From positions 1-64,000 of the forward strand of contig JAFAPY010000357.1 in assembly GCA_019246795.1 (NCBI GenBank): DNA of 64,000 bases, given 5' to 3'. The position numbers and the translations under genes are program-made. Below are positions 45,577 to 47,061 of this stretch, piece after piece; positions within the stretch are counted from its first letter, which is position 1; each line of letters begins with the position of its first letter. The notes under the pieces were generated by a model. It ran no database searches. It worked only from the letters and a program-made list of their open reading frames with translations, and had not been told where the DNA came from. The DNA is from Streptosporangiaceae bacterium. GTDB taxonomy: Bacteria > Actinomycetota > Actinomycetes > Streptosporangiales > Streptosporangiaceae.

Positions 45577-46047
45577 ATGACAACCAGCCCCGACCCGCTC
45601 GGCGTGCTACGGCACTCTCACGACGCGCTGCGGGCCATGGCGGAGCCGCTCGGCCTCGACCAGCTCCGGCAGGGTTCATACGACAAGGAGTGGTCGATCG
45701 CCCAGGTCCTGGCGCACATGGGCTCGCAGGCGGAGATCTCCGGCCTGTTCCTCGACGCCGCGCTGAGCGGGCAGGATCCCCCGGGCCGCGAGGCGTTCGC
45801 CCCCATCTGGGAGCGCTGGAACGGCAAGGACCCGCAGCGGCAGTTCATCCTGGAAACCGGCGACGGCGTCTCGCTGACGGCAGCCCCGGCGGGCCCGCCA
45901 GAGCCGGGCCTGCCCGAGGTGAACCTGCCTGCCGAGGCGTTCGTGCGCCTCGTCTACGGCCGCCTGGACCCGGCGCACACACCGCCGTCGGTCAAGTGCA
46001 CCGGGGTGGACCTGGACGACCTGCGGCCGCTGTTCCCCGGTTTCTGA
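45577..46047 (+). CDS. DinB/maleylpyruvate isomerase (mycothiol-dependent) family protein, apparently shortened
   Basis: N-term 'WSIAQVLAHMGSQAEI' and C-term 'LPAEAFVRLVYGRLDPAHTPP...VDLDDLRPLFPGF'. Confidence 0.78.
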   Translation: MTTSPDPLGVLRHSHDALRAMAEPLGLDQLRQGSYDKEWSIAQVLAHMGSQAEISGLFLDAALSGQDPPGREAFAPIWERWNGKDPQRQFILETGDGVSLTAAPAGPPEPGLPEVNLPAEAFVRLVYGRLDPAHTPPSVKCTGVDLDDLRPLFPGF

Positions 46048-46171
46048 CCAAAGCTTGCGGCTGGCACCGGGTTACGGCTGGCTCCGCTGCGGGGCGGTGG
46101 CAGTGTGCCCTGTGATCCCGGTGATCCCTGAGAGCTTGCTGGTGCTGTCGGCCCGGGCAACAGGACGAACG

Positions 46172-46242
46172 ATTTGTGCTTCACGAAGGAAAACCGGCCG
46201 GATATGACCACTTTTCTTACCTCAGGCACAAATCCTTCGTGA
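46172..46242. other. two perfect inverted-repeat pairs in crossing order (pseudoknot-like topology)
   Basis: atttgtgc 46172-46179 / gcacaaat 46226-46233; tcacgaagga 46181-46190 / tccttcgtga 46233-46242. Confidence 0.75.
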
Positions 46243-46314
46243 TAATTGCATGTTGTCCGTACTGGTGAGCGAGCCGACGGTTAGAGAGGCCAGTGATGCC
46301 CAGAGGCCTCAAGG

Positions 46315-47061
46315 TTACCGGGGGACCGTACCGATGACCACGGTGGCACCCAGCTCGGCGGAGGCAGCCACCGAGGCGGCCAGGCCGCATGCGGTGAAGG
46401 CCTCGGCCGCGGCGGGAGCTTGCCGGGCGCTGGTCTCGATCAGCAGGTGACCACCGGGGGCCAGCCACTGCGGTGCGCCCGCGGCGACCCTGCGCAGCAC
46501 GTTAAGGCCGTCGCCGCCGCCGTCGAGGGCGCACGTCGGCTCATGTGCCCGGGCCTCGGCGGGCAGCAGCGCGATCTCGCCGCTGGGCACGTAGGGCACG
46601 TTGGCGACGACGATGCCGACCCGGCCGCGCAGCCCGGACGGCAGCGCGGCGTACAGATCACCGTGATGGACCTGAGCGGCCGCGCGGCGGCTTGCCCGAC
46701 GTGCGCGCTCCGGCAAGCCCTGAGCGGCCGCGCGGCGGCTTGCCCGACGTGCGCGCTCCGGCAGGCACTGAGCGGAAAGGTTGCGGCGGGCGCAGCGCAC
46801 CGCGGCCGGGTCGATGTCGGCCGCGTGCACCTTGGCTGCGGGCACGGCCGCGGCCAGCGCGGCGCCGATCGCGCCGGTGCCGCAGCACAGGTCCACGATC
46901 ACCGCGCCCGGCGCGGCGAGCTGCACGGCCTGGTGCACGAGGAACTCGGTGCGGCGCCGGGGCACGAACACGCCGGGTTCGACGGCTATCCGCAGGCCGC
47001 AGAACTCCGCCCAGCCGAGGATGTGCTCCAGCGGCTCGCCCGCCGCCCGCCGGCCCACCAT
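46315..47061 (-). CDS. putative protein N(5)-glutamine methyltransferase (PrmC-like)
   Basis: 'VDLCCGTGAIGAALA', NPPY-like 'VVANVPYVPSGEI', 'PGGHLLIETSARQ'. Coding potential continues 5' of 47061, start codon unclear. Confidence 0.83.
   Translation of the reverse strand: MVGRRAAGEPLEHILGWAEFCGLRIAVEPGVFVPRRRTEFLVHQAVQLAAPGAVIVDLCCGTGAIGAALAAAVPAAKVHAADIDPAAVRCARRNLSAQCLPERARRASRRAAAQGLPERARRASRRAAAQVHHGDLYAALPSGLRGRVGIVVANVPYVPSGEIALLPAEARAHEPTCALDGGGDGLNVLRRVAAGAPQWLAPGGHLLIETSARQAPAAAEAFTACGLAASVAASAELGATVVIGTVPR
46672..46775. repeat. 2 x 48-bp in-frame tandem repeat in the PrmC-like gene
   Basis: Encodes 'LPERARRASRRAAAQ(G/C)' twice; units 46672-46719 and 46720-46767 plus an 8-bp partial. 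Confidence 0.95.

Follow-up and report, generated by a model that had tools for sequence, protein, structure and literature searches.

The crossing inverted repeat and its locus

The window analysed, a 64-kb stretch of DNA (64,000 nucleotides), contains a 267-bp gap between two gene ends at positions 46047 and 46315. The product of the left-hand gene has its best match in MDMPI_N, with DinB_2 falling below the cut-off, and the right-hand gene encodes a small-domain methyltransferase compatible with PrmC. An earlier note on this DNA labelled these neighbours DinB-like and PrmC-like, respectively. The gap holds two perfect inverted repeats, arranged in the order A-B-A'-B':

46171-46179, + strand: arm A, GATTTGTGC, pairing over 9 bp with A', GCACAAATC, at 46226-46234
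46181-46190, within unit M2 (see below): arm B, pairing over 10 bp with B' at 46233-46242

The crossing arrangement is present as previously described, with both arms perfect, the gap of the length given and B/B' of 10 bp; A/A' is one base pair longer than the 8 bp reported, and A' and B' overlap in this copy by two bases, not one. Dinucleotide shuffling of the gap, repeated 5000 times, produced an A-B-A'-B' pattern once. The window contains two crossing patterns, against a mean of 0.3 in shuffled windows, the second coinciding with a tandem repeat within the prmC-like gene. When folded by itself, either strand generates one long, nested and imperfect hairpin (approximately 46165-46240, z -3.5 to -3.8) and does not favour the crossing pair. 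The crossing pairs are therefore alternatives to the hairpin, and not the favoured structure.

A dispersed intergenic repeat family

A search with the gap sequence in the genome containing the window (G000, a draft of 4.28 Mb in 424 contigs, 92% complete) returned about 30 other places, and a model built from the first copies yielded 74 matches. Because the element is palindromic, each place is matched on both strands, and these matches correspond to 37 places. The search for further genomic copies proposed in the earlier note is hence positive, and the pattern at 46172-46242 is one copy of a dispersed repeat, not a one-off RNA switch. The sequence at 46159-46248 scores 97.6 bits with model R1, and the following parts can be distinguished in this copy:

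46162-46243 (model span 46159-46248), no strand assigned: repeat core, which aligns with sequence at 36 further places in the genome
46122-46158, no strand assigned: left extension, starting with GATnCCTGAGnG, weakly common to about ten other copies
46249-46276, no strand assigned: right extension, CGTACTGGTGAGCGA, common to about ten copies

The aligned core (~80 nt) reads AAnAnCnCGnAGGATTTGTGCTTCGCGAAGGAAAAGCGGCCGnATATGGCCGCTTTTCCTACGTCAGGCACAAATCCTTCGCGnTAA, and the median pairwise identity among copies is 74%. About ten copies, the one at 46162-46243 among them, are alike beyond the core on both sides, with the longest copy match extending to window position 46122. Other subsets of copies are alike over up to 312 bp, and in some the core is embedded in units of 190-310 bp. 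The core presents a GC fraction of 0.50, as opposed to 0.72 in its flanks. Nearly all copies are intergenic, with four overlapping low-confidence ORF calls made with a simple composition rule, and the genes adjoining them belong to many unrelated families. Among the 27 copies with two clear neighbours, these are convergent in 11 cases, tandem in 11 and divergent in five. Judged by the features of MITEs laid out in PMC2229807, these are short (<200 bp), non-coding, dispersed and mainly intergenic sequences, with a core of about 85 bp and some copies sharing up to 312 bp. Inverted terminal repeats are likewise present, the whole core being an imperfect palindrome with an average self-complementarity of 68%.

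Four 18-bp units define the core

All members of the family follow the same plan, an imperfect palindrome in which four ~18-bp units follow one another, M1 and M2 direct and M3 and M4 inverted, so that each arm of the palindrome is an inverted repeat built of two direct repeats. In the copy under study the units are:

46163-46180, + strand: iteron M1, GGACGAACGATTTGTGCT; consensus from 32 copies, TCACGTAGGATTTGTGCT
46181-46198, + strand: iteron M2, TCACGAAGGAAAACCGGC; consensus TCGCGAAGGAAAAGCGGC; contains arm B
46207-46224, - strand: iteron M3, inverted; own-strand consensus TGACGTAGGAAAAGCGGC
46225-46242, - strand: iteron M4, inverted; consensus TCGCGAAGGATTTGTGCC; contains nearly all of A' and B'

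The outer units have TTTGTGC in common and the inner units AAAGCGGC, and GTGC/GCAC, which lies within the A/A' pairing, is invariant across the family (alignment columns 18-21 and 68-71). GTGC allows M4 to pair with M1, and CGAAGGA allows it to pair with M2. Since M2 resembles M1, M4 is complementary to both, and the crossing A-B-A'-B' order arises as a by-product. Owing to a change in M1 (CGAACGA), the copy at 46162-46243 has a longer match between M2 and M4 than between M1 and M4. Matching between M2 and M4 exceeds that between M1 and M4 in 20 of the 32 copies and is equal or better in 26, and only 12 of them present any crossing arm pair with lengths of 6 and 7 bp or more. A weak positive association between M2 and M4 was detected both in this genome and in G014, a genome from another genus of the same family. 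The proposal in the earlier note of half-sites for protein binding or recombination finds a good fit in the fourfold iteration of an 18-bp unit, and the plan suggests the existence of a cognate DNA-binding protein.

Distribution among relatives

The distribution of the repeat is patchy. R1 matched three and R2 six of the 347 genomes of the order, with no match in 341 of them, and R2 matched only the genome of origin among 395 genomes spanning the class. The only congener examined (G001, 74% complete) returned no match, nor did the plasmids, phages and viral contigs searched. A scan of GTDB contigs for the exact pattern, leaving out the genome of origin, produced seven single matches in unrelated organisms that were judged to be due to chance, and for a double-unit pattern, searched for in 343 genomes of the family, the matches resemble tandem repeats or chance hits, except those in G014 and perhaps in G364.

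In G014 the repeat was identified in at least 45 distinct places, a figure that the actual total probably exceeds by far, and these fall into two subfamilies. Their sequence has diverged and their plan is the same: the units read CG.GGAAGAwwwGnGC, with spacing and order as in G000, and all four units differ together between the two genomes while the geometry is kept. One or two weak, four-unit-like matches were found in each of G358 and G364, and a partial match in G359 could be due to chance. A copy in G003, 92-93% identical to G014 copies, was rejected as evidence of an independent carrier, given that its contig (C79, loci L040 and L183) is 99.5% identical over 2.7 kb to a G014 contig (C332). 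C79 is probably mis-binned, a likely case of cross-binning between the two drafts.

Two further observations were made in G014. A core-bearing segment of ~239 bp at L183/L184 and at L187 lies in opposite orientations relative to shared flanks, which suggests an inversion or a nested insertion. In addition, elements of subfamilies (i) and (ii) lie roughly 110-200 bp apart at L042, L050, L054, L060 and L076, as if one targeted or travelled with the other.

Mobility and comparison with known repeat systems

At locus L071, two convergent stop codons are separated by 23 nt in G001 and by ~134 nt in G000, with the element located within the extra DNA. This spacing would fit an insertion in G000, although a deletion in G001 would look alike; it is the one clean empty-site-like case examined, and involves two genomes. 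No target-site duplication was detected above background among the copies. A terminal TA is present at the left end in 17 of the 37 copies, at the right end in 29 and at both ends in 11.

Two candidate movers were considered and rejected. A search for the Y1 (IS200/RAYT-type) transposase (PF01797) detected it in G001 and in neither of the drafts of G000 and G014, and RAYT was set aside. The IS630-type genes of G000 and G014 neither carry nor adjoin any units, and IS630 was likewise set aside. The 25 commonest families of genes near copies include no transposase. As regards MITEs in the strict sense, whose ends are shared with an autonomous transposon, no link through Y1 or IS630-type genes emerges in these draft genomes.

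The enterobacterial intergenic repeats ERIC/IRU (127 bp) and RU-3 (103 bp) (PMC2229807) resemble the present family in being short, intergenic and multicopy imperfect palindromes with a long stem and no proven mover; the comparison is by description only, and the difference is that in the present family each arm consists of an 18-bp unit repeated directly. A proposed IS630 client, RUP (107 bp) of Streptococcus pneumoniae (PMC2229807), is similar in size, intergenic copies and the TA at one end of most copies, but the IS630-type genes of G000 and G014 are devoid of units and just 11 of the 37 copies have TA at both ends. REP/REPIN sequences with RAYT (PMC3116915, PMC3733652) are likewise dispersed, palindromic, extragenic DNA made of composite inverted units; in contrast to them, the present units do not take the form of short hairpins with a GTAG tag at one end, and G000 and G014 yielded no Y1 (RAYT-type) transposase. 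Actinobacteria go unmentioned in the parts of PMC3733652 and PMC10969869, on dispersed repeats, reached by a term search. The family can be termed undescribed in so far as it has no match in Rfam or in the literature searched, which falls short of a full review.

A probable old mobile element with a possible recognition site

It is likely that the locus harbors one copy of a dispersed, intergenic, non-coding family of palindromic repeats of the MITE/ERIC kind, and the repeat is most likely an old mobile element. A trans-acting enzyme, probably a putative transposase, would have bound the 18-bp units, and the bound element would then have been copied or moved into gaps between genes. After a loss of activity, the copies would have decayed to their median identity of about 74%.

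More tentatively, the four-unit plan may constitute the site recognised by a novel enzyme or DNA-organising protein, co-evolving with its repeats; the repeat system, mobile or architectural in nature, would then be distinct from REP-RAYT and IS630 clients. This possibility is put forward because two genera maintain the geometry, with units spaced at 18 bp and a direct pair facing an inverted pair, while the sequences of all four units differ in step, and because the arms appear to be kept from perfect pairing, with nested pairing below and M2-M4 pairing slightly above shuffles. It is this preservation of the plan between genera, with unit sequences differing in step, that merits further attention, and the geometry provides a clear target for finding the recognising protein.

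The four units, whose invariant positions recur every 18 bp, could also represent a cooperative site for a host DNA-binding protein, either a regulator or a nucleoid- or chromosome-organising protein, maintained at many places for its function. The joint change of all four units between G000 and G014 would be expected if the recognising protein had changed, and the copies form AT-rich islands in a GC-rich genome. We nonetheless regard this explanation as unlikely: nearly all relatives, congener G001 included, lack a match, many copies separate convergent genes, an unexpected setting for a regulator site, and the similarity of copy subsets over longer flanks is that of copied DNA.

RNA structure across copies

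The analysis of the aligned copies speaks against a structured RNA. No Rfam match was obtained at either threshold, and the RNAalifold consensus kept only five pairs, none of them with compensatory changes. Such changes in the proposed stems, which would characterise a structured RNA, were not seen across copies, and neither the nested nor the crossing pairing showed covariation. The paired fraction was 75.5% for the nested hairpin, against 77.6% in shuffled data and equalled or exceeded in each of the 500 shuffles; it was 80.7% for the crossing structure, against 80.9%. Separate pairing counts agree in G000 and, more weakly, in G014. These shuffle tests treat copies as independent, which makes the below-shuffle pairing only a hint; it could be read as avoidance of perfect palindromes, and our claim is limited to the lack of any sign that pairing is under selection across copies.

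These data make it very unlikely that the repeat is a transcribed RNA element, such as a bidirectional terminator or mRNA-stabilising hairpin serving the two convergent genes and possibly mobile. The hairpin is strong on both strands, many copies lie between convergent genes and the consensus centre, AAAAGCGGCCGnATAnGGCCGCTTTT, resembles an intrinsic terminator. However, that centre is degraded in the copy at 46162-46243, where a terminator scan located one weak site, near the shuffled mean; it is not terminator-like in subfamily (i) of G014, five copies lie between divergent genes, and the nested pairing lacks covariation and falls below all 500 shuffles. The unique pseudoknot switch or sRNA suggested in the earlier note is the most improbable reading, since the perfect crossing arms of this copy, the equal or better M2-M4 pairing in 26 of 32 copies and the weak M2/M4 association in G000 and G014 stand against 37 copies with unrelated neighbours, the absence of Rfam matches and of covariation for the crossing structure, and the fact that just 12 of 32 copies have crossing arms of 6 and 7 bp or longer. 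The lone pseudoknot switch is hence a false lead, and its place is taken by a repeat family in a high-GC bacterium, an actinobacterium judging from gene content and GC.

Other repeats nearby

The tandem repeat inside the prmC-like gene (46670-46775) has a 48-bp unit, GAGCGGCCGCGCGGCGGCTTGCCCGACGTGCGCGCTCCGGCAAGCCCT, and duplicates LPERARRASRRAAAQ in the protein. Units like it, with about 85-98% identity, recur in the vicinity of further copies of the main repeat, at L009, L021, L024, L031, L034 and L071; judging from these similarities, the 48-bp repeat is a second dispersed repeat family, lying here in frame inside a gene. A 128-bp tandem duplication with 92% identity (L073, 813-1020) adjoins one further copy of the main repeat.
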